DNA from: Plasmodiophora brassicae
Taxonomy: Eukaryota > Endomyxa > Phytomyxea > Plasmodiophorida > Plasmodiophoridae
NCBI GenBank assembly: GCA_039704465.1
Contig: JASFAU010000013.1
Span: 496,001-560,000, forward strand
DNA: 64,000 nt
Reading direction: 5' to 3'
Shown: positions 4,781-62,412 of the stretch, piece by piece
How the letters are laid out: the number at the start of each line of letters is the position of its first letter
Position numbering within the stretch: the stretch's first letter is position 1
Translations under genes and position numbers: made by a program
The notes under the pieces: model-generated
The model's database searches: none
Seen by the model: only the letters and a program-made list of their open reading frames with translations
What the model was told of the DNA's origin: nothing

Positions 4781-4883
4781 CGTGTGCAAAGATCCCCCAG
4801 AATGCCATTCGTGATCCGATCGAAGGCGTACCTTTGGCAAGGTTGCTGTAGGCGGCGGCAGCCTCGCCGCCCCTTGCGCGCCC

Positions 4884-26663: not shown

Positions 26664-29600
26664 ATGGGCAACAACCCGTCCATCGTTGGGGATGTCGGCG
26701 CCAGCGACGAAACCGACGAGAAGTGCGTTCCCCTGAATGACGGACCGTGCTAATTTCTCATCATTGGCGTGCAGGCTGGTCGCCGCCAACGAGGACATTT
26801 TCGAAGAGGGATTCCTGAAGCGATACGCCCGCGATTTCAAACGGCCCCGCTTCAAGAAATTCGACACGCGACCGGAATCGACCGGGCCCGTATTCGGGTT
26901 CCGCCCGCACACGAAGAAGGTCCAGCACGAACTCATGGAGGACATCGCGAGCCTAAGCAGCGACCGGAAATCGAACGCGTATTCGATTGAGATCAACAAG
27001 CGCATCCACGCCATTCGCAAGATCCACAATGCGGTCCGGCGTGAGATCGTTCGCGATCGGAACCGGACGCAGGCCTCCGCGAACGCGCTCAAGAGCCGCA
27101 TCGAGACGGACGCGCCGCCGTTGCCGGCCAGCGCGAAGATCGGCATTAAGACGTCGGTGAAGATGTTCCTCATCTTGATCAAGTCGGCGCAGCAGACGGA
27201 TTCCGGCGTCATGGATGACATCCTCGACCTGCTGTGCGAGATCCTCGATGATACGCCACCGTTGACGCTGACTGATGGGCCGAACTTCAGCCCCGACATC
27301 GCCAACGGCCTCCGACCTCTGCTGGACTACATTCGCGCGCTGGTCATCTCGGGCGACCATTCCGCTGAACGGCGCTCCAAGGCGACCACGGTCCTGTTTG
27401 GGATCGCCCTGGCTCGTGGGTCGCTGCTCGAGCTGCTGTCGCTCTGCAAAGTCCTGCTTGCAAGTGACCGTGAAGGCAAAGGCGGCCTGTTCGCCATCGG
27501 CTCGTTCCTGCGCTGCCTGACCAGTCATCAGTCGAGCTCCAGGAACGGCGGCAGCACACTGGCGGCGGCTGGCTCGGATGGCCCCGCGTCCGCCGAGGCT
27601 CTCCACTCCAACGTCATCGCAAAGGCCGCCCTAGTCGACCCCTCCGCTGCTCTTGTGCGCAAGCTATCGTTAGCATCCGAAAGGCGGCACAGCCTGACGA
27701 GCCTCGGCGGTGGGGCCACACTTGCAAGTGCTCGTCGTCGCGGTAGTGTCCCGGGATTTGATGGGGACGACCAGAAAGAACCCGCTGTTGACGGTATTGC
27801 TTCTGACACGCGTTCGGCGGTCTCTCCGAGCGCGTTTCCACACGCGCCAGACGAGGTCATGCGGCGTTGTGTACCTGATCTGGCCGGGTTGAGCTCGCAG
27901 GACCCTGTCGACAGCCGCATTGCGATTCTTGTAATCATCGCGCAGCTCGACCGGCTGTCACAGCCATTCGCCCGACAACCCGATGAGGACATCTGGAATG
28001 ACGACCCAAATCGCCTTGCCGTCCTGTACAAACCGCTGTGCGTCGACGTCAAGCCCGAAACGCTGGTTGTTCTATCGGACATCCTCGACGCCGTCTCTCC
28101 TGGGTACTTCAACAGCCGGGCGTGTCCCGATTCGATGTACATTCCGAACATGTACATCGTTGTTGCCTGTCTTCGGATCCTGAAAGTGCACTTGTACCAA
28201 CTGGTCCGTGCCAAGTTGCCGCATAGCGAGTTCAGTATCGGCCCCGATGTTGTCGACCGTATCCGTGTCCAAATCTTTCGGTTCCTGGAGACGCCATCGG
28301 CTGCACGCTCAGACGAAGTGCTGATGGGCACGTCTGCGATCGTCTCGTCTGTTGTCCAGTCTGAAGCCGCGCAGATACTTGCCGAAGCATTTGAGTTCTT
28401 CTATTCAGCTGTGTCTGACCAAGTTGCTTACTTGGGTCGACTCATCGGCAAGTTCAACGCAGCCAGGGCCAGAGCTGACGCCCCTGTGGCTGCGGGCGAC
28501 GTTTTATCCGGACCTGAGCGCGACCTTCTCGAGCTGCTGTTGTCCCGCTTCGCATCATTCAGCGCCGGCTCGCTTCTGCTGGATGAACTTGAGCAGGCGT
28601 CCTTGCATGGGTCTCCATCGCCATCCAGCCCCATGGTGATGGGAGTTCTGAACAGCCTGATTTCGGCTAGCGTCAACGAAGTAACCGATGCCCTTCGTTC
28701 CACAGGCAAGACACTGCCGGATTCAAACATCCTGGTAATCTTGCAGAACTTCCAGAAACATCTGCTATCAAGGGCAGGCCTGTATTTGGAGCCGCCTGCA
28801 GCGGCTTCATCCGAATCCACAGGCCGGAACCGATCCAGGCACTCGGAATCCGACGTTGTACCTCAGCCTGCCGGTGATGATGACGATGAACAGGCAGCTG
28901 GTGGAGTTTCCTCGTCTACATCCCCAGTTCGGCGGCAGGCTGACGCTCTTGATACGGATGGGAACATGGATGTTAATGATCCGTCTTCCGGCAACAACAC
29001 TACGGATGATGCGAGCGGGGCCCCCATGGCTACGAGAGCGGTGGATGAAACGATGGCCGAAGCGGCCAATGGGCATGCAATCTCTACCTCTGGCCCGCCC
29101 CCGTTGGATCGCGACAGTGCAAGTTCGTCTATGGTCGAATCGTTACCGGAGGTCGAGGACCCTGAGAAGATCCGCATCCGCCGGGCGATGCTGGCCGTCG
29201 TTTGGGAGTACAGCAAGACACTACTGTCGGCGTCCTTTGGCGTGGTCCGATTGGCATCTGACATTGTCGCCAACGACCAAACTTCTGAAGGTCTTAGGCG
29301 CGTCGGCGAAGACATCTTACGGGAATCTCTGGTCTGCAAGCTGACGCGGCCCTTAATTGCGTCTTTGTGCCTGTTCGCCGGCCAGGCCGATGGCCCTGAA
29401 ATGGCTCTGTATCTTCTTCCGATCTTGTCAGAGTTCTTGACGCAGTGTGACCGATTGTGCTGCTTCGTTCGCGAAATCAGTCTGCCGGAACACGAAATGT
29501 CGGTGGACAAGCGCCGCGTCGTACAGAGCCGTCACCCGTACAGAAACAATGTTGATCGGGAGGAGGTAATCACGATCAAGGATGCTCAGTCGATGGTCGT

Positions 29601-32600
29601 CACTTTCGACACAACCCGATGCAGTACGCAGTCTGAGGAGGATTACGTACAGCTGTTCCGGCTGCCCAACAAGAAGGATGCTCTGACTGACCGTCTGTTT
29701 GGTCCCGCTGACGGCAGCAATTGGCCTGCTGAACCTATCGCTGTGCCCGGTGACACTGTGGTTGTCTACTTCCACTCCGGTTCTTCTGGCTCTGGCTGGG
29801 GATATCGGCTCAACGTTCTCGGTACTGTTCTTGTGACACCGCTCTCTTGGCTTGACGACTTCACTGCGAATATTGCATGGATCTGTGGGAGGCTGGGAGC
29901 GGCGCTTATTGTGGGCCCGGCTGTCGGACGGTCTGAACGGGAGCTCCAGGGTTCAAATGCTGCTCTGTTCAAATCTGGTGTTGAACAGTCGCACGGCCTC
30001 TTCCCGTGCCTTTCGCCTTTTCTTATTGAATCTGGCCTTGACCTTAATGATCCAGCATTGGCTCCTGGTGATGTGCATCGGCCTCAGGAGAAACCTCCTG
30101 GAAGCCCTATGCAATCCTTGATGTCACCAGGCGATCAGATGCGGTTCCTTCGAAGCATTGTGGCAAACGAGGACGTTGGGCGCATTCTACTTGCCAAACT
30201 CAACCGGCTCATCCCCGATCGGCATATCGTCCAACGGTCTGTGTCCGATCACGCCAACAAAGCGACGGCTGGTGTATTCGCAGTCCTTCTGAAGCACACG
30301 CGTTGCGTCGAGCTGGCAATGGCCGTCGTGAACACGCAGGATGACGATGCCAAACCACCGGATAGAATCGTCCGCCTTTGGAAGAAGGCCCAGGAGATGA
30401 AGCTTGAACTGCGTTCGCTGAAGGCTCAGGGCGAGGATATTGACGCGTCGCTAAGCGTCATTGGGGAGCGTGTCGAATTTCTGCTTCACATCTGTGCGGA
30501 CGACGGGTTCGCTGCCGTCAACGAGCCTGACGGTGGCGCAACTGGAAACGACTTCCCGTCCTGCGGTAGCGACAAGCATGGCAACGGAACTGAGGCGTTT
30601 TTAACGACATCGTCTTCGGAAGGCGACCTGGCAATGCTAACGGCTATGCAGAATGGGAACTTCGAGTCTGCTGTGAGCTCGGAGTCGGCATCTGGCGGCC
30701 CAAGCTCTAACTTGCCCTCGCGTGCCAATTCCATAACAGAGCTGACCGGACCCCTAATCCTGATGCAGAAATCGAACAAGTGGACGCAAGCCCGTGTGAT
30801 GACCAAACTTCTCAAGAACACAATGAAAGCGCTGCGCCGTCTGAAGGAGCTCATGCTTGTACGAACACGCCTGGCTTCCGTTAAGCAAGATCCAGAATCT
30901 GTCTTGATTCGCGTTGTCATGAAGTTCATGCTGGCTCGTTACGTTGACCTTGATGCCATTAACGAAGGCTTGGTCGCTCAGAGAACCAGGGCCGTCATGC
31001 GACTTCTCGGTCTTCGGCAGTTCTTCAAACTGGTCAAGTCGGTCCGACGGCCAGGCCTTCTGCCAGAATTGCTTTTCCATCTCAATGCCGCGTTTCGTCG
31101 TTCTTCTGATGTCGGCACCAAGGTAGCAAAAGTCACGAAAAGGCATCTTACTGCGGATGTCCCTACCGTCGGCCCAGTTCTCACCGAGCAGTTGCACGAG
31201 ACATATTTCGACATTGTATCATCGCTTATGACGCGGGATGAACTCGATGACGTTTCTCGCCTTCACCTTCTCGACGTTTGCAACATCGATTTCGCTCCTC
31301 ACGATTTGATGATCTTGCATCGAATCGGCCTTGTGGAGTGGCTGGCGCCCATCTTTGCATTCACTGGGTCGAACAAGGCCCTCCTTCTCGATGACGTTGC
31401 CCGTTCAAATTGCGTTCGCCAAGCTCACTTGAGGCGCTGCCCTTGGAACATCCGTTTCGGGGCGTGGTCCTTGTTCCGAATGCTTGCGTATGCAGCGTCC
31501 AGTAATCCCGCTCCATCGATTGATTGCCTCGACGTCATATTGCGAACATCTTTTGAGCATATTTCATTGCTCTGGCGGATGCGCCAACATCAGGAATCAT
31601 CATCGGCTATGCAGTTGCGATCTGTGCTTGCCGACGCCGCTGACATGGAAATCGACCAGGATGGCCGCGGTGCCCAACCCAATGTGGCTCGTGTCTCATG
31701 GCAGTGCCGACGATGTACGTTCTTCAACGAGAACGCTTCCGAATCATGTAACCTATGCGCTTTGAGCTTCGAGGAGAACGAGGAGCTGGCACGACAGGAC
31801 GAGGAACTCGTCAGCGAGGACGTCGAGCAGAAAGGCCTCGAGTTCGTTTATGAGGCCGACTTCGATACGAAAGGTGTTCTCTACTACTTGGGCACCTCTG
31901 GCGGCACGGAACCTTGGCGTAACCCACACGACCTCGGCGTTGTAAAGGTTACCTCGTCGTCTGTTCAGAGTGACTCGAACCCGATCTCTTCTGTTGTCGG
32001 TCGAACTGCTGTCCGATGTGTGACACAGCCTTCTCCGAACCAATGGTTCGCAGTCGATCTTCTTGAGCACTCTCTTATTCCCACTCGGTACACTCTCCGT
32101 CACTATTCCTCGTGGGACACTGAGGCTCTTCGTTCTTGGAACCTCGAGGGATCCAATGACGGATCGACATGGGTCGTTCTTCGAGCTCATCAGAACGATC
32201 GGTCCCTGGAGAAACGTGGAGCTACTCACACTTGGGATGTTTCCAACTGCACTGAATCGTATTCCCATTTCCGAATCTTCATGACCGGGCAAAACTCAAA
32301 CGACCACTGGTATCTCGCTTTATCGGGAATCGAGTTTTACGGTATCCTTGATGGCGACGCTGAGCTCATATCGTCGTCGACGAGCGCCACTTCGCAGGGG
32401 CGTGGGTCGGGGCATGACGCAATGCATCGTGCCCCTTCTGGAAGCACACATGATTACTGGGATATACGGGATACGCGAGAAATTGAATTCGGCGGCGACG
32501 ATCCGACTCGACCAACTGTCATTACGCACACCAATACGACTGAATCATGGCATACCGTCAAAGGTGTCCAAGCCTATTCGTTTGGTCGACATCTTCTCGA

Positions 32601-35600
32601 GTTCCGAATCGACCGGGATGGACATGGTAGTAATTCGTGGAAATTTATTATTGGCGTTGTTCCCCATCGGTTCATGATCAATAACACGAGCACATGGATC
32701 GGATCGCAGGGTGGCTGGGGCTACATCGGCGGCCTAGGTCACAAGAATTACAATTCCAGCACGAACCGGCCCTATGGCGCCACGTACACAGCTGCGGACA
32801 CTGTTGGGGTCCAATTGGATTTCGATGCGGGGACCATTGAGTTCTTCAAGAATGGCGTCTCGCAGGGTATCGCTTTCGACAACCTTACTGGCCCTGTCTT
32901 CGCTGCAGTCTCCATGACCGGCTATCAATCAAGGGTCGCCTTCATGCAAACTCCTGTCCCTGAAGAAGATCCACGGATTGCTGATATCGACCACACATCA
33001 TGGCACGTTCGCATTCGCGAAGCACATCTCGGAGACGCATCTGTATTCTGGTTCAAGAACGATTTCGATGACGTCGGTCTTCGAGGACGTCCTATTACCC
33101 GTCAGGAAGCGCCCGCTGTCGGCGAGCTAGACGCGTATCTCAACCAGTATCTTTGGATGCTTCTTCGATGCTGCCCCTTCCCAGCTGTCCAGAAGATCCT
33201 TACGTCGCGTTCATGGATACGTATGATTCTCGATGCAGCGGCGCATGGATCGCCTCTTGGTCGCCTACTTGCAGTTCGAATCTGCCGGTATATTCTCCCA
33301 GGAATCTCTCCTAGCGATGACAGACTGATTTCGTCGGCCTTCCAACTGCCGTCACCTACAGCGTCCCCCACCATCGACAATTCTCCCGGCTCATCAGCCA
33401 TGGTCATCGACGATGGCTGTACTGCTAATGTTGCTAGCTCCTCGCGTGCTGCTCCAGGAGCGTCTCGCAAATACGAGCTGATTGCTGAATTTCTTGAGCG
33501 CGCCGCTGACGCTAGCTTCCAGTTGCCTCCTCGGTGTGATCCCTCCTCAGCGCGTTCCGCAGCTATCGATGACGTTGAGTCCAAGTCTCGAAAAGCAGCG
33601 ATCGATGCGTCTCTTCGTCAGTATAAGCAACGGTGCAGTGCGCGTTCTGGGCCTGCTTCTCTTTCATTCGAGGTCAGACGTGGTACGATTGAAATTTCTG
33701 GTTGGCATCATCTCAAATCTACAACGGGCTTTGCCACTGCGGTTGCCGATGTCTCCGTCTCCTCTGGTAAGTGGTACTTCGAAGCTGTCCTTGAGTCCGC
33801 TGGCCTTCAGCAGATCGGGTTCTGCCTTGCGGAATTCAGCCCTGCTGGTGCCGGAGACGGTGTTGGTGACGATAAAGTCTCCTGGGCCTACGACGGGCTA
33901 CGTGGTAAAAAGTGGCACGACGGTTCGGCAGCATACGGAGCAAGTCAGGCGCCATGGAAAGTGGGCGATGTTGTTGGCGTTCTTCTCGACCTAGATGGTT
34001 CGGGGGAAATTCGGTACACCCTGTCTGGCCAGGACCTTGGTCTCGCCTTCTCCAACATTCGGGGAAACGCCTCGGGCGATTCGTCAAAGCGCTGCTCGGG
34101 CGGTGCGTCTGTGTATCCTGCCATTTCAATGTCGGCCGGAGAAAGCATTCGTTTCGTGTTCGACCCGAGTAAATGGACCCACAATCCCCCTGATGGCTAC
34201 TTTCCTCTTGTTGGCGATAAGCCCACTGTCCAGCAGAGTCGATTTGTTCCCTGGAGCATCGAGAGCGATGCTCTCGGAAGCGAATATGTGTCATTGTCAC
34301 GCGTCTTGATGCGGTCTACCCTCTGGAAAGTTCTCTTCAACGATGTTCTCTGGTCCGGGTTGCAGCATCTCGTCAGAATCCCATCGGAGTTCGATTCGTT
34401 GTGTCGCGTTCTCCGCTTGCAACATTCGAAAGATCTCGACTGGAGCGCGCCAGCTGTTCCTGGAGAGTTCTGCGCCGCCGTTCGTCGTGTCGTTTCAGCT
34501 CTATCTGTACTCGGTGGCAATATCGAATCCATCCGGCAGGGCGCGCGGGTCGCAGTGGATTCAACTGATGGCCAGTCGTTGGAAGGCACCGTCACTCGCA
34601 TCGTTCGTGAACCGAACCGGGGCATTGTCGTCGTTGTCAACCTTGACAACGGGGATGATGTTACTGTGAGCGAGGCTGCTCAGCTTTCTGCTCGATCGAA
34701 CGTCGAACTGTCACTCTCCCATATAAAGAACCCTTCCGAGCTTCTGAGGCTGCTGGGCACGTTCCTATCGACTCCGATTTCAAAGAACGTCGCTCGTCTA
34801 CCCACTGCTCGCCAGATCCTCATGCAGATGCATCGGCAAGCGCTCAAGGTTCTTTTGGGACTGTTTGAGAATCCTGATTTCGTTGCGCTTTTCATCGATG
34901 CTGGATTCGGGAACCTGATTGGTCAGCGGGCCCTTGCAACTACGGAACCCCTGGCGGATGGTCTCGTCAACATGACCAGCAACCTCGAAGCGCGCGCGCT
35001 TGCACTTGAGAAGCGCCGACGGGAGTTGCATGATCCGGAATGTGCTGATGAAACGGGAAGTCTGCTTCGCTTCTCCGGCGATGTAGTCTACTCGAAGTCG
35101 GTGGGCCCATCTGAGGTCAACGCGCGTATTCCAGTGATCTCGTTTGACGATTCGACGTTCGTTGAGCAACTCTCGGCTCCCGACGAGTCGCGCATTGAGG
35201 AATTGTGCATTTGGAGCGACAGCCTGTTTATAACTGGCTTGCGCGTCACCTACCGATCTGGCGACAACTCGGGTGCGACTGAAAATGCCCCTCGCCATGT
35301 TGGGTCTACTAGCGACGTTGGCACTTCTACGATCGTCTCGTTCAAGTCTGATGAGTATATTGTTCGGATGGAAGTGATGTGCTCTCCAGCTCCTTCCGAG
35401 TCTCCAACGGCTGGGAGTCCGGACGCATATGCAATTTCGTCTCTAGTCATAACAACCAATCACGATGTCGTCTACAAATTCGGTCGATCACATGGCGATA
35501 ACAGCCCGATTGATGCTGCGGACGGCAACTCTGCGTCAGTCACCGTCAACACAGGGCATGGGGTTGTCGCGTTTTACGGTCAGATCGCATCTCACCTGTT

Positions 35601-38600
35601 AACAATTGGACTTGTGGAGCGTCCCGTCAAACGAGTCAAGCTGCGGCACTTTACCTACATCTCAGATATGGATGAGAACGGCATCATCTACTTCTTGGGT
35701 TGCCGAAACGGTACGGCTCCGTTCCAAAATCCAATGACGCTTGGGATTGTGGAAGTTACAGTTGCCCGCGTCAAAGCCGACTCGGCTCCAGTTTCTGCTG
35801 TTGTTGGACGAGAAGCTGTTCGTTGCCTGTGCAATGACATGCACAACGGGTGGTTCTGCATTGACTTCAAACGCTACCTTGTACGGCCTACCCGCTACAC
35901 GCTGCGTCATTATTCTTCCTGGGACACCGAAGCTCTTCGGCACTGGAAGTTCCAGGGCAGCGTGGACGGCTCCGACTGGGTTGTTCTTCGTGACCACGTT
36001 GACGATACCACTCTAAGTCGCAAAGGGCAAGCCGCAACCTGGGAGATTCCTGCTCAGCCGCACTACTTCCGTTACTTCCGAGTACTTATGACCGGCAAGA
36101 ATTCAAACGGGCACAACTACCTGTCTTTGAGCGGATTTGAACTATACGGCGACCTTACCGAAGAGATCCACGAACTTCGTTCGCCCATCGCATCAGCTGG
36201 AGGTGATATTTCAGAATCGGCGTCAACGATTGATGGCGCTGCAACCACAAGTACAAGCACTGCGGACGACGATGTCGTCGTATTGCCTTCTCTTCAAAAG
36301 CGTCGGAACGATGCTTCGGGTCCCGCTACGCTCCTGTCTCCACCTAATGCAACGCTTGCTGGCGCCTTGAGCAGCGGTAGCACCGTTCTCACATCCACTA
36401 CGAGCAGCGACGTTCTGACAACTATCGTTGCGCCTTCATCTGCTCAGACGGCTCTAGAACCAGGGTTGGTTTATTCTTGTGGACACGGCGGCTCTGGTCG
36501 CCTCGGACATGGCAACAACAGCGCTGTCCAGATTCCTAAGTTGATCGAAGGTTTCGATGGTCACAAAGTCGCGTCACTGTCCTGTTTCAACCAGCATGTA
36601 CTTGCTCTCACCGAGGGCGGGCATGTGTACAGTTGGGGCAACAACGGAGAAGGTCGCCTGGGTCATGGCGACACAACCGCTGTAACGCGCCCGAAGCTTA
36701 TTTCCGCTCTTGAGAACACCAAATGCGTCCAGATATGTGCAGGGAACTCATTCTCTGCTATTCTCGATTCCGAGCACCGTGTCTGGGTCTTCGGCAAAGG
36801 GAACGAGGGCCAGATGGGCAACGGGACAATCACTGACCAGAAGACCCCCATCATGGTTAAAGGGGCCTTGGAGATGGTCGAGATTGTCCGGATCGGTGTC
36901 GGTGCATTCCACTGCCTCGCTCTGACAGCTTCGGGTGATCTCTACGCATGGGGTCGCAATCTACGTGGCCAGCTTGGTCTAAATTCCACTGCCAAGAAGA
37001 AACTCATGCCCGAGAAGGTGCAGAACGCCTGTCCGGCTTTCGTGGAAGTTCGTGGTGGCTGGGACCATTCAATGGCTCTTACATCTAGCGGTCAGCTGTA
37101 TTCATGGGGCAACGGCTACGAAGCGACTCGTCCGGCAACTGGGCATGGCACGAACCAGAACATTCTTTCGCCCAAGCTCGTTACTGCGCTGAAGGACAAA
37201 GTCGTCGTCCGTATTTCGGCTGGATGGGATCATTCGATGGCGCTTACCAAAGACGGAGAGGCTTACTTGTGGGGCGGAAATCCAAGCGGGGTTCTTGGGA
37301 CGGGAACGACAAACCAAGAAAGCACTCCGAAACTCCTCGGAGGTGATATTGCCAAGGAACGCATTGTCTGGATCGACGGCGGTCAGACGCACACATGTGC
37401 CGTTACCGAGAAGGGCGAATTGTGGATGTGGGGTTCACTTCTGGGGCAGGAAAGCAAGGTTCCCCGGAAGGTTGACGTATCATCATCTCCTCACGCCAAT
37501 TTCCAGTATGTTGTCTGCGGCGACAAGTCGAACTATGCTGTAACCTGCGAGGCACCAAAGCGGGTCCCACCTACCCCGATTGTTGCGATTGGTGCAACGG
37601 ACGTGACGTATCCCCCATATCCTCAGTCCGCTTTTCTTCTGGGTCCTCCCAGTGGGTTCTTTGTTGGGTTTGCTGCTGTGAAGCCGTCTGCAGCCACTTT
37701 CAAGGCGCCCCGCCTCGATTTGCAACTGGTTTCGTCCGATGGCGGGCAACATAGCGAACAGTTCAAAGCATCCAACGTTCTCGTCGATAATGATGAGGCG
37801 TACTGCACGACTCAACGCGTCAACGTGAATATTCTTGCCGAACCCGATCCATCTGGTCACCACATATACGTCACGGGCGTGTTCGCCCGAAATCCGGATC
37901 CCGAGAGTTTCACTGCCCCATTACGCGCAGCGCTTGTCTTCGTTTTGGATGACCCGACGGAAGTGTCGGCCACTGACCGCTTCAAGGATTGGACGATCCG
38001 AGAATACTCTGACTATATTGCCCGCAAGCGAGCTGCTGCTTCAAGCGAGAACGCCTCCTCGATATTTGACGAGCCGCTTGCAACGGAACCTGTTGCATTC
38101 ATTGACTTGAGCAACAACGTTGAATCGTATGTACAGTGCGACTTGATTCGTGCTGGGCGCTACGTCCTGTTCAAGCTGCTGGATTCTCGCTCGAAGGAGG
38201 CCAACATTGACGTTGAGTACCTTTCTGCGTTTGGCTACGTCGACGAACTGCCCATCGAACTAGAGCAACGACACGCTGAGCTGTACAGACGGACCCCGAA
38301 CGACGTCCGTCTGGAATTGGATGCCCGAAAGCGTCAGCAGGTTCGCAATTTCGCGAACGATACGATTGCGTCGTACAGGGGCGCGATTATCATTGCACCC
38401 GAGAACACCAAAGATTCTGGTTTGCTTCCCAATACCCCGACCTCAGCTCTCCTGACACGTTTCGAGTGTGATTCTTGTATGACTGCCAGTGGCGTAACGG
38501 TTTGTGTTCGTTTTAAGCCGGACTCGCCATCATCCGCAGCTTCAACATCGTCTTCGACTGGCATTAAGCCGACAAACGTTCTTCTTAGTCTTGTGATGCT

Positions 38601-41600
38601 ACCTGAGAGCAACTGTAAAGTTGAATTGCTCGCAGATACTTCTTTCCGCGTGCTGGTCCTCGCCGTGGCCGATGGTAATGGCACAGTTGTCTCGGAAGAC
38701 ATTCTTCTTGACGACTTTTCTGGAGAGTGGCATCACGCCTGTCTTGTGCTCGATCGTCGTTCTCCTGCTGGCGATCGTCTTTTAGTTGGGGTTTCGGCAT
38801 TCCTTGACGGAGCTTTGGCTTGTGCCGTTGTCGTTCCAGGCAAGGGGAAGTCAGAATCCTTCGCTGCTAGCAAACTGCTCTCCGCATCTGGTAATGTCAT
38901 TGTCGGACAAGGCATCCATGGCCAGTTCCGGGAAGTTGGCGTTTGGGGTTTTGCCCTGGACTGCAAGCAGGTTCACGATCTGTGCCAAAGTTCCCTTGAA
39001 TTCTGTGTCGCTGATTGTGAAGAGGCAGCACTGCACGCACTGCAGGTGTGCACATTTGAAGCAAACATGTTGACTTGCACTGGCGAGTGCGTTCTTCAGC
39101 AGGCAACTAAGCAACAGCAAGGAACTGCAACATCGGAAGCATCCGAGACTTCGAATGCTTCCTCGCGATCTTCTGATAGCTTCGTTGTTGTCAACCCCGG
39201 CGGCTACATTCACGTAGACCGTGTGCTAAGCCGGAAACCGTTGATGGACGCGTACACCGTTATTATTGATGCGAGCTTACCGTCGCTTCCCGCGACTGAA
39301 GATGCTGTTCTTATTCGTTGCTCCCAGGCTGCTATAGGTGTTCGCCCCGATGGCAAACTGAGTATTCTGGGTCGCCTCGACTATAAGAAATCCGCTCGGA
39401 AACTAGCAGCCGGCGTCTGGTACAGGATAGTTCTCTCCGTGGACTTGCAGAAGAGCCAAGTATTTGTCTTCGTCAACGGAATGCTGGCGGCCTCTCTTAC
39501 TGGTCCCGAGGATGCCCTCCTAGCTCGCGGGGGACCATTCTCTTTGCCGGCGGCGTTTGACTTGGGACTTGGCAATAACGCTTGCGTGGTTAACATTAAG
39601 CGCGTCCAAATTCGCAGCAAGCCGTTATCCCAATCGAATGCGATTCGCCTACGTTCGGCAGACGATCCGCTTGAGGATGGCCGTGATATCAACGTGGTCG
39701 CGCGGTCGCTCCTGAAGATGGGTTATTCCCTACGGTGGTGTGTCAAGGCGCTCACTGTCACCAACATGGATCGTCGTCTGGCTAGTGACTACATTCTCAA
39801 GAACGCCATTACGTTGCTCGGAGAAGACCGGCTCGAAGAGCATAACAAGGCTGCACAGACTTTGAGTCTGATGGGCTTCCCTCGGAAGGCGTGTGCGCTT
39901 GCTCTCTCGCGGTCGAATAACGATACGGCTGCCGCCATTCGGTACCTTCTCGACAATGCTGAACAATTATCCGACACCGTTCTGTTTGACGATTCTTCCG
40001 CCGTTGAGAACCCTGAGGCCCATAGTGCCGATTCTACCGGCGTTGGAGCTTCTATTGGGTCATCAGGCGATGACCAGCTTCGTAACCTCAACATGGAGAA
40101 GAGTGAAAGCAACAACGCTGCATTCCGCATTCTGAAGAACACGAAAGAGTCCATGGAGGCGTCACTGGACGACCTTGTTCAACGAACGGCCCCGAAACGC
40201 ACTGTCGAATATCCAGAGCTGCAGAACCTCAACAAGAGCGAGCTTCATCAGGCGATGGTGGCAACCGAGAACGCACTCGCGATCACGTACTCGCGGAAGT
40301 GTGTCTTGTCCATCCTCCAGAACTGGCCGCCCGGCACGCCGTTGTCGCTGCGCGTGTTTGGCGATGACGACTTCCTTGTTAAGTTTATGCGTCTAGTTGA
40401 ATTCTCCCAACTCAGTGATGGGCTGGACGTCCTTCGCGCTTCTCTTCTCCGTATTCTCGATCGTGAAGAGTCGTCGATTAACGACGCCCTTCACACGGAT
40501 AGCATGTCGCTGTCAATGCTACGACAGTTCGCGCCAGTCGCTCGTCAACTGCTTGCAGAAGCGTTGAACCATATGGTTGGGGTCATTTCCGACCCTCACG
40601 TGAAGGTCCTCAACGAAGCGGATGCACTGTCCCATCCGAACCCTGGGCTTGTGATCTGGATACTTAACCTCTTTGCCGAGTTCATCCAGGAGGTTGGCCC
40701 TCTGAAACCTGCATCCGGGGCGATTTCCGGGGAACAGGCCGACGTCACGTCCACTTCCGCGTCTGGTCCAGGTCCAGCAGGCGCAGGTGCTGGCGGCGAA
40801 GTAAGCCAAAGGCGCGACTCGACAATCTCGTCGTCGACCACTCATCTTGGCCGCACTGTTTTCTCTGGGCCTGTCGTCAACCTAATCTTCGAGGTCATCG
40901 CCGTCTCAAGTGGCGATCAGCGGTTGTCGTTTGTCCGTCTTCTGTCGCATTTGATTCGGTTGGGCGTCGGATTTGATTCTACGCGATCGTCGGTTCTCAA
41001 GGACCTCATGAACCACATGCACGTCGCTCAGAGCAGCAAGGGCGTCTATTCCGCGTTCTTCCAAGCCCTCATTGAGCTCAATGTGTCCATTGAGAAAATT
41101 GAGCTGGCTCGTATCCAGGAAGAAGAGACCGAAATGGGGGCAGCGAATGCTGCTGCGACCCCCGATAGTGAGGAAACTTCTGACAAGCCACCCGTAGCAG
41201 CTGAACCTGTGGAGCAGCAACAGGTTACTGAAGAACCTGCGCCGTCCCAAGGCATACAGTTCTCCTTTTCCGAAGACATGGACACCAATGGAATCCTGTA
41301 TTATCTCGGGACGAACCAGAACACGACGGCCTGGACGAATCCCTCGGAACTCGGTGTGGTCAAAGTGACTGCATCGTCGCTTATGCTTGATTCGAAGCCT
41401 GCGTCTGCGATTGTTGGTCGCGAAGCCGTTCGCTGTGTTACGAAACCTGTTCCGAACCAGTGGTTCACGATTGATTTCCTGGATCATTCGGTGACGCCGA
41501 CCCACTACACTCTTCGGCACTACTCATCATGGGATACGGAAGCAGTGCGGTCGTGGCGCTTCGAGGGTTCGAACGACGGTGTGTCCTGGGTTGTCCTTAA

Positions 41601-44166
41601 AGAGCACCGCAATGACGCTGCCCTCTGCCGCAAGGGACAGGCTCACACTTGGGTCCTGCCTCCGATCGAGGAGTCGTACTCTCAATTCCGGCTGTACATG
41701 ACCGACCAGAACTCCAACCAGCACTGGTACATGGCGTTGTCCGGATTCGAAATCTATGGCACGCTTGACGGCGATGCGGTCGCATGGGAGGAGGAAGAGA
41801 AGGAGTTCGTGTACCAGGAGGACATGGACACCAACGGAATCCTGTACTACCTGGGAACCAACGAGCTGACTGACTGGTGGCAGAATCCAGCCGAAATGGG
41901 TCTCGTTCGAGTAGAAGCATGTTCATTGCAGCACAACTCGATGCCGAAATCCGCTATCGTCGGACGCGAGGCTGTCCGATGCGTCTCGCAGCCCAACCAA
42001 GATCAGTGGTTCGTTATTGATTTCCTGGACCGAAGGATCGTCCCGACGAAGTACACGCTGCGCCACTACAGTTCGTACGACACGGAGGCGCTTCGCAACT
42101 GGCGCTTGGAAGGAAGCACGGACGGCACCAACTGGGTTTGCTTGCGCGAACATCGTGACGACCAGTCGTTGAAGGCCAAGGGGCAGCCGCACACGTGGGA
42201 CATCACCAGTACAACGCAGCCTGCTGAGTCGTACAGCAAGTTCCGCATCTTCATGTTCGGCAAGAACTCGAATGACCACTGGTACCTGGCGCTGTCTGGA
42301 TTCGAGATCTATGGGCGCATGACCGTCCGAACTGGGCAACGATCGACGAACGCTGCTGGCGCTCGCAGCAAGCCGCGGAATAAGCCCTGGTTTGAGAGCG
42401 TCCTCCTTGTTGATTCCATCGTCCGGTCGATTACCACGAAATCGGCGTTGCCGCGCCCGTTCTGCCGCAAGATCTGGAAGCAAGTTCTGACGTGGCCTTC
42501 TGAGAAAGGGCGCATGCGGAATGCTGACGAGGACGACCTGACGGAATTCGATGAGATCATGGCCTCGTTCAGTTCATCTGCCGATGAGGACCTTGTCTGT
42601 CTGGTGAATCGCATGGTCGAGAAGTCGACAGTCGATCCCATGCACATGAAGGCGTCTGAGTGGGATGTCAAACCCGATGAGCTGCTGCCGTACAGGTCCC
42701 TGGACGAGATTCCCATGTTCAATCTCCAGGTCCGCCTGTTCGTCCTGCAGCAGTTGAACATCCAGATTTCGTCTATCATGGGTCTGGTCGACTTCAGCCT
42801 ACCTGCGCACATGTCGTCGCTAGCCGATGGAATTCGATCCATTCGTGCACTGATCTTCTTCAAGACCAAAGAAGTGTTGTGGAACCGGGCCCTCGACGAG
42901 ACAAAGTGCCAGCCATCGGATCGCGAGCTCGAACTGGATCGCTTCCGATCCGTGAAGCTGAAGGAAATGAAGAAGACGGACGCCAAAGGCAAGCGGTCTC
43001 TCTTCGGGCAGGCCTTCCAGCAGCTGAACAATCGCGACCCGAAGATGTTCCGTCTCGAGAAGAACAAGTGTGCCTGGAAGACTGTCTTCAAGGGGGAGTT
43101 CAGCGACGACTACGGCGGCCCTTACCGGCAGTCGATCGAGGACTTCTGCAACGAGTTGCACAGCGACCTCCTACCTCTGTTCATCAAGTGCCCGAACGGA
43201 CGCGAGAACATTGGGACGAATCGGGAAAAGTTCGTGCCTCGGCCGTCATCCATCAGCCCTCTGCACCTGGCCATGTACGAGTTTGTCGGCAAACTCATGG
43301 GCCTCGCGATTCGGACGAAGAACGTGCTCGACCTGGACCTGCCATCGATCGTGTGGAAGCCGCTGGTATCAGACGTCATCACAGAGGACGATGTGCTTGC
43401 CATCGACCTGCTGTCCTTCAAGATCCTGGACGAACTCAAGAAGTTCGAGGTCAGCAACGACCTGCCCACCGAGTACTTCACCGCGTTCGTCAACTCGAAG
43501 TTCGTCGTGATCGGGTCCGACCAGCGTGTGTACCCGCTGGTGCCCGGCGGCCACCACATCCAGGTCACGTGGGACAACCGGCAACAGTTCGCCAAGTCGC
43601 TGATTCACTACCGCCTCAACGAGTTCAAAGTGCAATGCGAGGCCATCCGACGTGGGCTCGCCACCGTCGTCCCGTACCCGTTGCTGTCGCTGTTCACCTG
43701 GCACGAACTGGAAGTCGAGGTCTGCGGGCGTCCCAAGATGAACGTGGACCTGCTCGAACAGGTGACCGTCTACGAGTCCTGCTCGGCAACGGACCCCCAC
43801 GTCGTCCTGTTCTGGCGCATGCTTCGTGAGCGGCTCGATGACGTCGAGCGGTGCCAGTTCCTGCGTTTCGTCTGGGGCCGATCGCGCCTGCCGCTGAAAC
43901 AGGAAGACTTTGACCGCAAGTTCAAGATCAGTCGCATGCACCAGGCGGACCGCTCCCCAGACGACTACCTGCCGATCTCGCACACGTGCTTCTTCTCCCT
44001 GGAGCTCCCGCGCTACTCGTCGCTCGACATCATGCACCGGAAGATCCTGTACGCGATCACCCACTGCGTCGCCATCGACGCCGACGACACGTCCGTCGCC
44101 CAGGACGCTGCCAGACGGTCTGCCGACGTCGACGTCGACTCGGACAACGACAGCGACGTCGAGTGA
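26664..44166 (+). CDS. Giant HERC1-like HECT E3 ubiquitin ligase, ~5,816 aa
   Basis: Transfers ubiquitin from E2 through a catalytic cysteine to substrates. Exon 1 (26664-26722, MGNNPSIVGD...) joins across a 52-nt intron to one 17.4-kb exon starting at 26775; the apparent ATG at 26737 lies in the intron. Approximate residues: helical N-terminal region; CUB-like sandwich 930-1040; RanBP2-type zinc finger 1660-1690 (WQCRRCTFFNENASESCNLC); discoidin-like module 1 at 1708-1880; SPRY 1940-2080 and 2315-2495; jacalin-like 2805-2970; discoidin-like 2 at 2980-3145; RCC1 repeats 3250-3610; concanavalin/LamG-like 3910-4100 and 4175-4315; UBA pair 4325-4420; discoidin-like 3 and 4 at 4850-5015 and 5030-5200; HECT 5430-5796. 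The catalytic Cys is ~5758 in PISHTCFFSLELPRYSS, intact. An acidic tail follows. The order resembles HERC1 but with extra modules. Confidence 0.93.
41260..42318 (+). repeat. Tandem discoidin-like modules within the HECT gene
   Basis: Two adjacent ~170-codon modules (about 41260-41763 and 41803-42318) share MDTNGILYYLGTN, IVGREAVRC, TLRHYSSWDTEALR-like and YLALSGFEIYG motifs. Two more copies are at about 31837-32346 and 35650-36150 in the same gene. They look like galactose-binding/F5-8C-type beta sandwiches. Amino-acid similarity is high while codons differ, so duplication is old except perhaps in the tandem pair. Confidence 0.85.
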
Positions 44167-45060: not shown

Positions 45061-45378
45061 GGCGCACAGTCCGTATGATTGTGTCTTCGGGGGTGCTGAC
45101 AGCGCGCGCCTGCCAGGCCACCCGGGCCAGAAGACAGCAACGGGCAAAACACCAACCAGGACGGCCCGGCGGCCCAGGAACAAAACGTGCTGCCGCGACA
45201 TAGGCCTGCCTCGAATACACTGCACTGCTGCGGCTGCAGGTTCCGGTTAGGGCGGACAGGGGTGGGGTGCAGCGCGTGTTCTGGATTTAGTCCTTCTGCG
45301 CGGCGTTGTGTGACCCGCGCCCGTCGTAGTGATACTTCGCAATGCGGAGGCAGTGGCACGGACTGTCCGTCTGACGTC
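45061..45378. other. Intergenic or unresolved 3' exon of the SPATA17-like gene
   Basis: The frame from about 45127 is open up to and through the start of the next gene and is Cys/Arg/Gly-rich (LHCCGCRFRLGRTG). It could be a last exon of the SPATA17-like gene or a 5' leader of the AAA ATPase. I cannot decide from sequence. Confidence 0.3.
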
Positions 45379-47125
45379 ATGTCGTTGGCGACGGCGACGA
45401 CGCTGTTCGAGGAGGCGGATCGCGACGAGCGCGCCGGGCGCCTCGACGATGCGCTGTCGCGGTACGAACGCGGCATCGCGATCCTGCTCGACCTGATCAA
45501 GGTGACGCCGAATCCGGTGACGCTGCGGAAGCACGCCGAGCACTTCCTCAGTCGAGCTGAGGCCGTCAAGGCAAGGCACAGTCCCCCCACGGTCGTGTGC
45601 TCGTCCTGCACGTTCTCATACAGGGTGGTTTCGTGCAGGGACGGAAGAAGCAGAGGCCCAGACAGGTACCAGTGTCGCGAGGCGAGTCGTTTCCGGCCCC
45701 GACCCGATCCAAATCGAAACCGTCAATGCCGGCGAAGTCGCCCGCTAGTAGCATTGCGAAGCGTCCAGCTGCCAGACCGAGAGGCAACGGGACGCCAGCC
45801 CGATCGACACAGTCGTCGTCAGGTACGGCTCGTCGTGTAATGTGGGCGGGTGCTCCGCTCACCGCCTGGTGTAGGGGACGACCTGCGCGCCCTCATTGAA
45901 TCGGAGATCATCGACACGGCGCCATCGGTCTCCGTCCACGACATCATCGGGCTGGAACAGATCAAGCGGGCGCTGTACGAGGCCATCATCCTGCCCAGGT
46001 TGACACCGGCGATGTTCACCGGGCTGCGGGCGCCGCCCAAGGCCATCCTGCTGTTCGGCCCCCCTGGCAACGGCAAGACCCTGATTGGTACGCGCGCTGC
46101 GCTCATGTGGCGTATCTCGGCAACCGAGTCGCCTGATCCGTTGCCTCCCGTAGCGAAGGCGGTTGCCGCTGAAGGAAAGGCAACGTTCTTCTCGGTGTCG
46201 GCCTCGACGCTCACGAGCAAGTACGTCGGGCAGGGCGAGAAGCTCGTGCGAACACTCTTCGAGGTCGCACACGAGAAGCAACCATCGATCGTGTTCATTG
46301 ACGAGGTTCGCGTCGCCACCTTCTATCCGCTCATTGGCTAACCCGATGGCAACAGGTTGACTCCATCCTGCCGTCTAGAGGCGGATCGTCGGAACACGAG
46401 GCTAGCCGGCGGTTGAAAACGGAATTCCTGGGTACGTCCGCTGTTCGAATACGTGACGTCGTCGAACCATTGTTCATGAGTGGGTGTCTCGCGTGCAGTG
46501 CGGTTCGACGGCGTCAGCTCGAACCCCAACGACCAACTGCTGATCATCGCTGCGACGAACCTGCCCGGCGAGCTGGACGAAGCTGTCCTTCGGTAAGCGA
46601 GTACCCGCGAGACTTGCGCCGAGGTTGGCCATTTGACGATTCCTTCGCGGGCGGCGCTACCAGGCGATTTGCTCGGAAGTTCTATATTCCACAGCCCGAA
46701 CCAGCAGCGAGACGCAACCTCATCACGTCGTTGCTTACCCGTCAGTCCATCCAGGTTGCCCAGTGGTGGCCCGTTGCTCATTGCAGCACCGTGTTTGCAT
46801 AGGGCACAACCATCGACATACCATGACGGAAGCTGAACTGACGGAGCTCGTCCGGTTGACTGAGGGATTCTCCGGCTCCGATCTCACTGAGCTGTGCAAG
46901 GAAGCGGCAATGTGGCCAATCAGGGAAATGGGCGACCAAATCACGCGGTCGAGAGCATCCGTCCCTGCCATCACGTTTCAACATTTTCAGCGGAGCCTGC
47001 AAGCCATCAAACCGTCAACTAGCAAAGAGTCGCTGGAGGAGTTTGAGCGGTGGAATCAGGCGCATGGAAGCAGCATCGTTGGGCTTGATGGCGTCGGGGC
47101 GTCCTCACAATGTGTTATATCGTGA
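45379..47125 (+). CDS. MIT-domain AAA ATPase, spastin/fidgetin/katanin group
   Basis: Meiotic-clade AAA ATPases sever microtubules or disassemble complexes. From ATG 45379, an N-terminal MIT domain of ~65 residues ([20 protein letters not shown], then [13 protein letters not shown]) is followed by a basic Ser/Pro linker ([20 protein letters not shown]). The AAA module begins [20 protein letters not shown]. Walker A is GPPGNGKT (~46056-46081); pore region [18 protein letters not shown]; Walker B IVFIDEV; then [39 protein letters not shown] and [11 protein letters not shown]. The C-terminal helix [10 protein letters not shown] matches the spastin/katanin ending. Several ~50-nt introns interrupt the domain (after LI of Walker A, inside the DEVDS site, after VLR), and exact edges of the first two are uncertain. 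Microtubule severing would fit neighbours with ciliary roles. Confidence 0.85.
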
Positions 47126-51216: not shown

Positions 51217-51566
51217 GTCGGATCATGCACAGCGGCGGCGGGTCCGCCAGTGCCAAAACGGAATCAAAATCCCGCGCGAACTCTGGCGATTGGACGGCCG
51301 GCGCCCCCTCTCCCGTAATCTCGAATACTATTTTGTTCGGTTCTGCAGAGCATGGCCTGGCGGAAGCAGTAGACGATTCCGGGGGTGGTTCTGCGGATGC
51401 ATAACGTGGCATTCAGAACAAATCGTGTCCGGTGGCAGCAACGTTCTTTGTCACAGTGCGCACGCAAACCAGGAAGGTTGAGCACCAGGCGGGCAAGGAC
51501 AGTCGAAAGAGAGGACTCCAGCAGTTCACCTTCGTCGGCACAAATTGCTACGGCTCGCAAAAATGA
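51217..51566. other. Promoter region of coiled-coil gene, tRNA 3' flank
   Basis: A 71-codon minus-strand ATG frame (51412-51197) overlaps the coiled-coil gene's start in another frame; it is a plausible uORF. Otherwise only the Pol III terminator is recognised. Confidence 0.35.
51559..51563 (-). terminator. Pol III terminator of tRNA-Leu
   Basis: A run of five T on the minus strand begins three bases after the tRNA 3' end, the usual RNA polymerase III stop. Confidence 0.8.
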
Positions 51567-51653
51567 TGCCTCCGACGGGAATCGAACCCGTGCTCGCCTT
51601 TCAGCGAATCAGGTCTTAAATCTGACGCCTTAACCAACTCGGCCACAGAGGCA
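51567..51653 (-). tRNA. tRNA-Leu, anticodon UAA
   Basis: The 87-nt minus-strand sequence folds as a class II tRNA. The acceptor stem is TGCCTCT with GGAGGCA (one T-G pair). The A box is TGGCCGAGTTGG and the B box GGTTCGATTCC. The anticodon loop is TTTAAGA, giving anticodon TAA, which reads UUA leucine codons. The long variable arm (about TTCGCTGAAAGGCGA) is as required for tRNA-Leu. No intron and no encoded CCA, as usual for eukaryotic nuclear tRNAs. Confidence 0.95.
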
Positions 51654-55682: not shown

Positions 55683-55997
55683 ACGGCGGCCCGCCCCGCC
55701 CGTTCCGGAAAAATGACCACACCCGGCACCCCCCGACCGCGTGCGCTGCATCGATGTGCAGTTCCGCGTTACCGTCGAGTCGCGAGACGGACATTCGGTA
55801 AGTGGCGCAGAGTCTGCCACTGTCAGACGGGGGAATACACACACTTCCCGATTCGGCGTGCAGCCAGTTGGCACATGCGTCCGGAAATGCGGCTGGCCGA
55901 GAGCTGCACCCTGCCACGGTGGTCCCCCGAGTCCGAAGAGCGTCGCGTCGGTCTTCCCGGCGGATACCGCGAATTGCAGCGCAGCTGACGTGCCGGC
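55683..55997. promoter_or_regulatory. Divergent region between transporter and DYW-PPR gene
   Basis: 315 GC-rich bases between outward-facing genes. The transporter's true first exon may extend into it: a minus-strand frame down from about 55830 (MSVSRLDGNAELHIDAAHAV) looks partly coding. Confidence 0.3.
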
Positions 55998-58091
55998 ATG
56001 ATGCGCGCCACTGCCCGATCCGCTGTTCGTTGTTCGCGCGTATGGCGTGTCGATGCGGCGTCGGGCGTTCAGCGACTCGTACGCGGGCAGCGGTTCACGT
56101 CATCGGCGGTGCCCGAGAGCGAGAAGTTCCCGGCGGTGGTGACCCCGGACATGGCACCGACGTTGTCCCTCAGTGAAATGTCGGAGGATTTCATGAAGAG
56201 GCCGACGGTCCAGTTGGCCGCGCAGATCTTCAAGCTCGACAATGATGCTGAACGGGTTTGGAGCGTTTATCAACGACTGCTCGAGTCGGGGCTTCGTGCC
56301 GATGCGCGTACGTTCCTGCCGATGATGCAATTCTGCAAGCGGTGCCTGCCCACGAAGGGCATCCAAGTGCTCAAGGACGCCATCGAGAGGACTGTTCCCA
56401 TCAACGACAATATGTTCTGCGCGTTCGTGGACGCCTGCACGAAAACGGACCCGCCCATGTTCCAGGAGGCATTCGACATGTACATGAAGATCGGGCCGCC
56501 TGTTCGGACCCACAACGGTATCATGGCCATGTCGCAGTTGGCCAGGGCAGCGGGGCGTGCCAATGATGCGCTTGTGCTGGTCGCACACTCGTCGAACCAT
56601 CATGTCAAGGTCAGCCAGAAGTTGCTGCGGAACTTTGCGTTGATGTGTGTCGAGGCGAACAGCAAGCAGGGCGCCGACATCGCTGAGCGAATCCTGAGCC
56701 TGATCCGGACGAACTGTGTATCACACTTCAGGGACATGGACATGTTCGCCAACGTTGTTCGCGCCTTGCTACAGCAAGAGCGCTGGCAGTCTGCGCTGAA
56801 CTCGATCATGCTGATGGACGCGCTGAAGGTGCCGCCGACCCCGCTCATCTTCCACATGATCCTGTCTGCCCTGGCGAAGGTCGACCGCGTATCGCAGGCC
56901 ATGCAGGCATTCAACTCGATGGTGCCCAGAGGATACGACATCGAGATCCCCGTTCTGTGCAGCCTGATCAGTGCCGCTGGTCGCGTTTCCGAGATCACGC
57001 CTTTGCAAACTGTTCATCAGTATTGCGTCGGCAAGGAGCTCATGCTGGATGACGTCGTTCTGAGCACTTTGGTGTCAGCTTACGCCAATGCTGGGCATTT
57101 GTACCGCGCCGAGGAACTGTTCCGTTCCCATTGCGAAGCGTCAACACCTGACCTTGTCACGTTCAACGCGATGATTGGCGCTTACGGCAACCAAGGTGCG
57201 CTTCAGAATGCGATTGACGTGTTCAACCAGCTCAAGGCCGCTGGTCTGACGCCGACGAAGTGGACACTGTCCGGTCTTCTGGTGGCCTGCGCTCATGTTG
57301 GCGATATCGGCCGCGCTAGAGAATTCCTGACCGAATTCGATGAGACCTGGAAGATTCCTCGCGACGTTCAGCACGTTGAGTACCTGGTCGATCTCCATGG
57401 ACGAGCCGGCGACCTCAACACGTGCGAGAAGCTTGCGTCTGAGATCGAAAGCCCCGACATCCGCATATGGCTAGCGGTACTCACTGGCTGCCGCGAACAC
57501 AGCGACTTGGAGCGCGCCGAGCGTGTGTTTGCCAAGGTTCTACAGTTGCCGGACATCACGGTTCCTCAATACCTGTCCGCGTTTGCCCTGATGATGAGTC
57601 TGTACGCACGAGCTGGCCGCAGCGACGATGTCAACAGGCTCCGAGAAAGCATGCGGACGCGAGGCCTGCTAAAGGAGACCGGCCGCACGACTCTGCAGCA
57701 ATCCAGCAAGAGTATCAACTTCGTCACCGCTGATATCCAGTACCATGCTGACCCTGGACTTCGTGACAACCACACTCAGCTGATGCAACGGCTGGCGGAG
57801 GACGGGTACAAACCAGATGGGTCGCTCATCATGAAACCGCTCGCGCATTACGAGGACGAAGCAAGATCTCTGTCTCTGCACAGCGAGAAGATATCGATTG
57901 CCTACGTCATGAAGGTGCAGCCGGACTGCAACGATCCAATCCGGATGGCCAAGCTTGCGCGGATGTGTCCTGATTGCCACGACGCCGTCAAGCACGCATC
58001 TTCCGTCCTAAACAGGGAGATATTCCTGCGCGACCTGACTCGTCACCACCGCTTCGTCAACGGCAAATGCTCTTGCGGAGACTACTGGTAA
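55998..58091 (+). CDS. DYW-type PPR protein, predicted organellar C-to-U RNA editing factor
   Basis: PPR tracts bind specific RNA sites and the DYW domain is a zinc cytidine deaminase converting C to U in organellar transcripts. Single uninterrupted frame, 697 aa. The N-terminus MMRATARSAVRCSRVWRV resembles a mitochondrial presequence. PPR repeats fill about residues 60-530, for example VTFNAMIGAYGNQGALQNAI and DVFNQLKAAGLTPTKWTLSG. After an E-like linker, the DYW domain contains the active-site LHSEKISIAYV (His and catalytic Glu), CPDCHDAVKHAS (zinc CxxCH), then FLRDLTRHHRFVNGKCSCGD and the terminal DYW triplet. All zinc and catalytic residues are kept, so it is probably active. The PG-box linker is divergent. 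It has no intron, unlike most neighbours. Confidence 0.93.
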   Translation: MMRATARSAVRCSRVWRVDAASGVQRLVRGQRFTSSAVPESEKFPAVVTPDMAPTLSLSEMSEDFMKRPTVQLAAQIFKLDNDAERVWSVYQRLLESGLRADARTFLPMMQFCKRCLPTKGIQVLKDAIERTVPINDNMFCAFVDACTKTDPPMFQEAFDMYMKIGPPVRTHNGIMAMSQLARAAGRANDALVLVAHSSNHHVKVSQKLLRNFALMCVEANSKQGADIAERILSLIRTNCVSHFRDMDMFANVVRALLQQERWQSALNSIMLMDALKVPPTPLIFHMILSALAKVDRVSQAMQAFNSMVPRGYDIEIPVLCSLISAAGRVSEITPLQTVHQYCVGKELMLDDVVLSTLVSAYANAGHLYRAEELFRSHCEASTPDLVTFNAMIGAYGNQGALQNAIDVFNQLKAAGLTPTKWTLSGLLVACAHVGDIGRAREFLTEFDETWKIPRDVQHVEYLVDLHGRAGDLNTCEKLASEIESPDIRIWLAVLTGCREHSDLERAERVFAKVLQLPDITVPQYLSAFALMMSLYARAGRSDDVNRLRESMRTRGLLKETGRTTLQQSSKSINFVTADIQYHADPGLRDNHTQLMQRLAEDGYKPDGSLIMKPLAHYEDEARSLSLHSEKISIAYVMKVQPDCNDPIRMAKLARMCPDCHDAVKHASSVLNREIFLRDLTRHHRFVNGKCSCGDYW

Positions 58092-61965: not shown

Positions 61966-62412
61966 CGCAGCAGCGGCTACGATTCCCGTATGAAATATCC
62001 AACGGCAGGCTCGCGGCTTACCTACTATCTCGATCGAGATTGCGCCCGGCAGGTTTATAGCAAATATCTGAGCAGCGGCTCGACCTTCTGTCATCTCCCA
62101 GATCGCGATACGTCGTCCATTGCAATGCTTCGTTTTCGGCCATGCCACTGTCGACCCGGTCCGAACACATACCCGAGCGCCCTGTTTCCTGCAGCAGGTC
62201 TTCTCAATCGACGGCCAATATGTCGACGTCGTCTAGCTATAGAGCTGCTCAGCATTTAAGAGCATCTCCACCGGTGATCCATATCCATATATGGCCGTAA
62301 ATCTGCAGATAATTACCGAGAAACTGCACCCCACTCGTTGCAAGATATGGATTACCTTTAAACCCGTAGCAGATTTGGACAGATCTGGAACGGATTTGAT
62401 GATGGCAATAAA
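61966..62412. other. Intergenic, no supported gene
   Basis: 447 bases between divergent genes, including an AT-rich part around 62270-62420. Short frames only; no domains. Confidence 0.4.

Follow-up and report, generated by a model that had tools for sequence, protein, structure and literature searches.

The 64,000-nucleotide stretch analysed here, hereafter the window, comes from the endomyxan rhizarian Plasmodiophora brassicae (contig JASFAU010000013.1, positions 496,001 to 560,000) and contains a gene at 26664-44166 (+) whose product of 5,816 amino acids, as judged from its sequence, is probably a single conserved, intracellular, lipid-tethered giant HECT E3 ligase with ubiquitin readers, substrate-binding modules and a HECTD3-like catalytic unit. 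The gene is continuous, the order of its modules is kept in relatives, the catalytic cysteine is intact and the N-terminus carries a conserved MGxxxS motif. A broader proposal, to which we give somewhat less than even credence, is that it represents the first member of a class, so far undescribed, of giant HECT ligases that are N-myristoylated and tethered to membranes in P. brassicae and its relatives, combining ubiquitin-chain readers, about 10 substrate-binding beta modules and a HECTD3-like unit, with a paralogue apparently deprived of the catalytic cysteine as a possible pseudo-ligase partner.

An open-frame scan finds 5,809 codons without a stop at 26737-44166 (+), the runner-up stop-to-stop frame in the window having 700 codons and the maximum in 20 base shuffles of the window being 298. 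Joining the conserved N-terminus to this frame requires splicing, so that the gene model has two exons and a single 52-nt 5' intron, and its residue numbers are the open-frame numbers plus 7. The spliced N-terminus, MGNNPSIVGDVGASDETDEKLVAANED, supports both the start ATG at 26664 and the intron: it can be aligned with the corresponding ends of two relatives, P0003 and P0004, and of two same-genome paralogues, C5 and C13b. The preliminary description had proposed a single giant HECT gene of 5,816 residues with one 52-nt intron, and both the 5' model and the single gene are borne out by this alignment, the continuous frame and the full-length collinear relatives. The gene and the modules of its product, for which Pfam profiles served as the module search and PDB matches as the solved-structure comparison, are as follows.

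26664..26722 (+): exon 1, encoding MGNNPSIVGDVGASDETDEK, with the N-terminal MGxxxS (predicted N-myristoylation signal)
26723..26774 (+): intron, 52 nt, phase 2, GTGCGT...GCAG (GT-AG), with TGCTAAT about 20 nt upstream of the acceptor
26775..44166 (+): exon 2, open frame, 17,392 nt with the stop codon counted in
26776..28806 (+): N-terminal all-helical region, ARM/HEAT-like by look; AlphaFold mean predicted local distance difference test (pLDDT) 64
29506..29829 (+): CUB-fold domain, open-frame residues 924-1031
31699..31758 (+): RanBP2-type zinc finger (NZF-like), from the sequence pattern W-x-C-x2-C-x3-N-x6-C-x2-C
31825..32361 (+): discoidin-fold (F5/8-type) copy 1, PF00754, with an orthologous copy in P0003 and P0004; limits from alignment
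32509..32976 (+): SPRY 1, approximate limits; PF00622 in 2 stretches, PDB matches to RanBP9/10 and TRIM9 SPRY
33769..34164 (+): SPRY 2, ryanodine-receptor-like; Pfam, PDB matches to RyR SPRY
35188..35613 (+): jacalin-like domain, PF01419, E 2.4e-9, precomputed for P0003 and P0004 too
35638..36162 (+): discoidin-fold copy 2, alone below the PF00754 cut-off and above the Sad1_UNC cut-off; orthologous copies
36451..37383 (+): one RCC1-like beta-propeller of 6 repeats, Pfam RCC1 4.3e-65, best stretch WD40_RLD
39334..39636 (+): concanavalin/Laminin_G_3-type region, PF13385, best of 2 stretches
39685..39804 (+): UBA 1, limits by eye, from UBA_7 (2 stretches) and sequence
39850..39957 (+): UBA 2, UBA_7/UBA
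41236..41772 (+): discoidin-fold copy 3, Pfam; orthologous copies
41794..42336 (+): discoidin-fold copy 4, Pfam; 25.7 bits, below cut-off, in the whole-genome search
42385..43116 (+): pre-HECT helical domain, HECTD3 D3NA-like, from the AlphaFold model
43144..44067 (+): HECT domain, Pfam E 6.5e-64, with catalytic Cys5758 at 43987-43989
44068..44163 (+): acidic C-terminal tail after the HECT domain, from sequence; the tail of P0003 is similar

The Pfam modules comprise two SPRY, four F5/8-type (discoidin-fold), an RCC1 region of six repeats, a jacalin-like domain, Laminin_G_3 and UBA_7 (two stretches each) and HECT. Most of the module set proposed earlier (UBA, RCC1, SPRY, lectin-like, concanavalin (ConA)-like and HECT) is thus recovered; the RanBP2 finger misses the Pfam cut-off (10.2 bits against 27), although the window protein, P0003 and P0004 all display its cysteine pattern. 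All four of the discoidin modules described there are likewise Pfam copies, of which two pass the cut-off (28.2 bits) singly in the whole-genome search and two fall short of it (25.7 bits). The HECT active site, also said to be intact, reads LPISHTCFF with Cys5758 in the TCF motif of the C-lobe. Beyond that list we find the N-terminal MGxxxS, the helical N-terminus, the CUB fold and the HECTD3-like catalytic unit. The helical region at 26776..28806 matches no Pfam family in the Pfam scan and is 42-47% identical to P0003/P0004, with which SPRY 1 shares 65-71% identity. The propeller matches UVR8 best in the PDB, and the RCC1-like domains (RLDs) of HERC2 and HERC1 are among its other matches.

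Conservation of the whole architecture is seen in P0003 (5,274 amino acids), where all 15 modules are found in order by BLAST (E <= 1e-3), and in P0004 (5,333 amino acids), where 14 of the 15 are found; the module missing from P0004 is the small finger, overlooked by BLAST although its cysteine pattern is visible. The collinear order is N-terminal helical domain, CUB, finger, discoidin, SPRY, SPRY, jacalin, discoidin, RCC1, ConA, UBA, discoidin, discoidin, helical domain and HECT; compared stretch by stretch, P0003 is 36-46% and P0004 42-47% identical to the window protein. P0005 retains 12 of the 15 modules and P0006 14, both SPRY queries matching the single SPRY of P0006. In both of these proteins the SPRY follows the last discoidin copy and precedes the HECT domain, and their precomputed Pfam accessions include families that we take to be of Kelch type. 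Each of the four discoidin copies clusters with the corresponding copies of P0003 and P0004 (0.942-0.998), and the fourfold set therefore predates the split of the window gene, P0003 and P0004. In a HECT tree of 25 sequences, drawn without the HECTs of HERC1, HERC2, HECTD4 and HECTD1, these three split off with support of 100; C13b joins them (93), as do P0005 and P0006 (92).

The genome itself (25.34 Mb, 21 contigs) encodes an HSP90 with 100% identity over 669 residues to a P. brassicae entry (P0020), the following hits reaching 85-89%. A protein search of this genome with the C-terminal third of the window protein gives 28 matches, among them two further giant paralogues, both split into several frames by introns. 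C13b shares the contig of the window gene, ∼180 kb away from it (C13:326978 to about 340.4 kb (340370), +; loci L030 and L028), and has an intact TCFF; a clear discoidin match was not seen in it in the module comparison of the paralogues. C5 (1163178 down to about 1147.4 kb, -; loci L031-L033) matches the helical N-terminus, the CUB region, two discoidin copies and SPRY, RCC1, UBA and HECT stretches. At the position of LPISHTCFF, C5 reads DITVYAREF, the frame then continuing RLDLPEYSS; its catalytic cysteine therefore looks lost, and C5 is probably a catalytically dead pseudo-ligase. Smaller relatives are found on C1 and C3, and C4 carries a HECT gene in which one RCC1 region is seen.

The uniqueness implied by the preliminary description is thus contradicted by four relatives and two giant paralogues. 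Its view that the combination of modules is uncommon agrees with our literature searches, which lie apart from the eukaryote-wide survey PMC3673628: among the matches listed, none describes the full combination, a myristoylation motif on a HECT giant or the giant family, and the clubroot literature searched yielded no description of the three giant HECT-type genes. The parts appear to be known, while the combination, the motif and the family were not found described.

An N-terminal MGxxxS/T is a mark of N-myristoylation, and we predict that the motif serves as such a signal here. It reads MGNNPS in the window protein, MGNDLS in P0003, MGSAQS in P0004, MGAGVS in C5 and MGAGQS in C13b (five of the seven family members examined), and across the first ∼40 columns of the five-sequence alignment only M, G, S6 and a single D are invariant. 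The background for MGxxx[ST] is 87 of 9,408 ATGs in the sequences covered (0.9%, overlapping loci being counted repeatedly), a guide and not a probability because the five motif genes are related. The genome encodes an N-myristoyltransferase C-terminal domain (E 3.1e-71); no myristoylated HECT ligase was found by title or abstract among the literature matches listed.

The catalytic unit resembles that of HECTD3, which is by a wide margin the best PDB match of the HECT sequence and whose structure can be aligned over 517-521 residues, starting at model residue 213-216, compared with 325-396 for the 47 other listed HECT entries. A helical D3NA-like domain packed on the HECT domain, as in the HECTD3 subfamily, is present in the window protein; the DOC insertion of HECTD3 type is not, the modelled pre-HECT region being helical without a beta insert and preceded by the discoidin copies. 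HECTD3 clusters with HECTD4 and the Large HERCs in published trees. The giant ligase probably forms a lineage-specific class of giants within this HECTD3/HECTD4/Large-HERC branch, because its HECT similarity is nearest to HECTD3 among the solved ligases.

Several observations weigh against the interpretation of a lipid-tethered ligase with a HECTD3-like unit. The remaining two HECTD3 conformers superpose with root mean square deviations of 12.1 and 11.2 (lobe rearrangement or poor fit), and the AlphaFold input alignments were shallow (9 and 6 sequences). Tree support beside HECTD3 is weak (37-75), in a tree that omits the four HECTs named above, and its rows are partly fragments (C5 contributes 181 columns, partly translated through introns). 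The predicted proteins P0005 and P0006 begin with MDSEQ and MEGGL, respectively, and do not have MGxxxS, although their starts may have been wrongly predicted.

Comparison with known ligases sets the window protein apart from each. Human HECTD3 is the nearest solved HECT, its helical N-terminal domain and HECT domain superposing over 521 residues, but its DOC domain lies within the helical domain, whereas the four discoidin folds here are N-terminal to it. To our knowledge, HECTD3 has no RCC1, SPRY, UBA or myristoylation motif. HECTD1 has a discoidin-like (Sad1/UNC-type) domain, ankyrin repeats and a MIB domain; Pfam Sad1_UNC matches the discoidin copies of the window protein, and neither ankyrin repeats nor a MIB domain is listed in its Pfam scans. 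The putative ubiquitin-protein ligase P0014 of Trypanosoma cruzi (3716 amino acids) shares HECT (39% identity), SPRY and Laminin_G_3, but RCC1 and F5/8 families are not among its precomputed Pfam families. P0009 (4229 amino acids) and the C1 gene of P. brassicae combine HECT, SPRY and one discoidin copy, P0009 with a finger match as well; they differ in having that single copy, in showing no RCC1 match and in forming a separate HECT clade (support 100). HECTD3 is also far smaller, at 861 residues versus 5,816 (PMC13196369). A survey of T. cruzi reports 16 HECT proteins, with SPRY, RBZ and Laminin G3 occurring among them (PMC5976635); these, and the discoidin, SPRY and HECT of P0009 and the C1 gene, lower the novelty of the present combination.

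The Large HERCs, HERC1 and HERC2, come close in size (∼5,000 residues) and share RCC1 and HECT, with SPRY in HERC1 (PMC6692442, PMC11577452); HERC2 also has an acidic C-terminal tail, which stabilises its C-lobe (PMC11577452). The window protein differs from them in its one RLD, its four discoidin domains and its N-terminal MGxxxS. Since HERC1 combines RCC1, SPRY and HECT (PMC6692442), the RCC1 matches include the HERC1 and HERC2 RLDs and the window protein likely falls within the HECTD3-Large HERC branch, it could be a Large-HERC orthologue (HERC1/HERC2-like) with added domains. We regard this as unlikely: the window protein has one RLD of six repeats against more than one in Large HERCs (PMC6692442), UVR8 and not a HERC tops the RCC1 matches, and the C4 HECT gene with its RCC1 region is an alternative HERC candidate of the genome.

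In the mechanism that we favour for the lipid-tethered ligase, the N-terminal myristate would tether it to the membrane, and the helical N-terminal half and CUB fold may act as a scaffold. The NZF-like finger and two UBA domains may hold ubiquitin or ubiquitylated cargo, while the SPRY, discoidin (DOC-like), RCC1, jacalin-like and ConA-like modules would bind protein partners. The HECTD3-like unit would then move ubiquitin from an E2 to Cys5758 and on to membrane-associated substrates. SPRY and DOC/discoidin folds of intracellular ligases bind proteins. This, together with the DOC domain of HECTD3 being called substrate-binding in a review (PMC13196369), speaks against the earlier suggestion of an intracellular hub reading glycans or glycosylated ligands. 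That suggestion draws on the jacalin-like, Laminin_G_3 and F5/8-type families and on a GH92 mannosidase (E 1.3e-8), the solved structure that the discoidin copies match best; such folds, however, bind many kinds of ligand and the basis is fold names only, making a glycan hub appear quite improbable, although sugar binding by the jacalin-like domain is possible. P. brassicae is a plant root pathogen (PMC6823432), but export of the protein into the host as an effector is hardly credible, given that no hydrophobic secretion signal is seen by eye at the conserved N-terminus and that the family is kept in relatives. Least probable of all, and largely refuted, is that several adjacent genes or an assembly artefact were taken for one gene, a reading with only the extreme length in its favour, opposed by the collinear full-length proteins P0003 and P0004 and by P0002 (source lgn), which is identical but for one difference in 5,809 residues.

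The genome averages 4 introns per gene, of 60 bp each (PMC4471660), which fits the intron-dense neighbours (one every few hundred bases) noted earlier and makes the giant gene an outlier, as are other very long genes of this genome. The special weight previously placed on this scarcity is not sustained. Three of 13 HECT Pfam loci, a set that does not include the C5 giant, lie in frames of at least 2,000 codons (5,809, the window gene; 3,801, containing the C4 HECT gene; 2,875), as do four of 11 dynein heavy-chain (AAA_6) loci in frames above 2,000 codons (4,628, 2,875, 2,576 and 2,170). We therefore reject intron poverty as a special trait, same-genome dynein heavy chains and other HECT loci also lying in long frames. 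Neither C5 nor C13b has the 5' intron in its genomic DNA, and P0003 and P0004 lack it to the extent that proteins can tell (spliced predictions or cDNA being possible); a gain is the simpler explanation, the intron being best regarded as acquired locally by the window gene. Intron loss through reverse transcriptase, with its classic retained 5' intron, is unsupported by the same distribution. Intronless relatives prove little, since database relatives are biased towards uninterrupted frames. A candidate shared intron near residue 5699 was discarded, its positions in C13b and C5 being ∼7 codons apart.

Elsewhere in the window, an AAA ATPase exon comes after a sub-threshold MIT match in the downstream neighbour of the giant gene, 45100-46338 (+). 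A 568-codon frame at 4815-6518 (+) has UBR4-like and phage gp19 matches, both sub-threshold; a tRNA-Leu (taa) lies at 51565-51653 (-) (ARAGORN and Rfam); and a polysaccharide lyase family 14 domain (E 8.6e-42) is encoded at 60739-62232 (-). The single 700-codon frame at 55989-58091 (+) encodes a PPR protein with an E motif and a DYW deaminase domain, which we take to be of the plant organelle RNA-editing type, here in a rhizarian plant parasite.

As far as we know, described HECT ligases reach membranes by C2 domains or partners; if our interpretation is correct, a lipid-anchored type would be added to them, and the HECTD3/HERC toolkit (RCC1, SPRY and DOC-like folds) would have been recombined into giants outside animals. 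The conserved six-residue motif yields a testable prediction of membrane targeting, and for clubroot biology three giant HECT-type genes are flagged.

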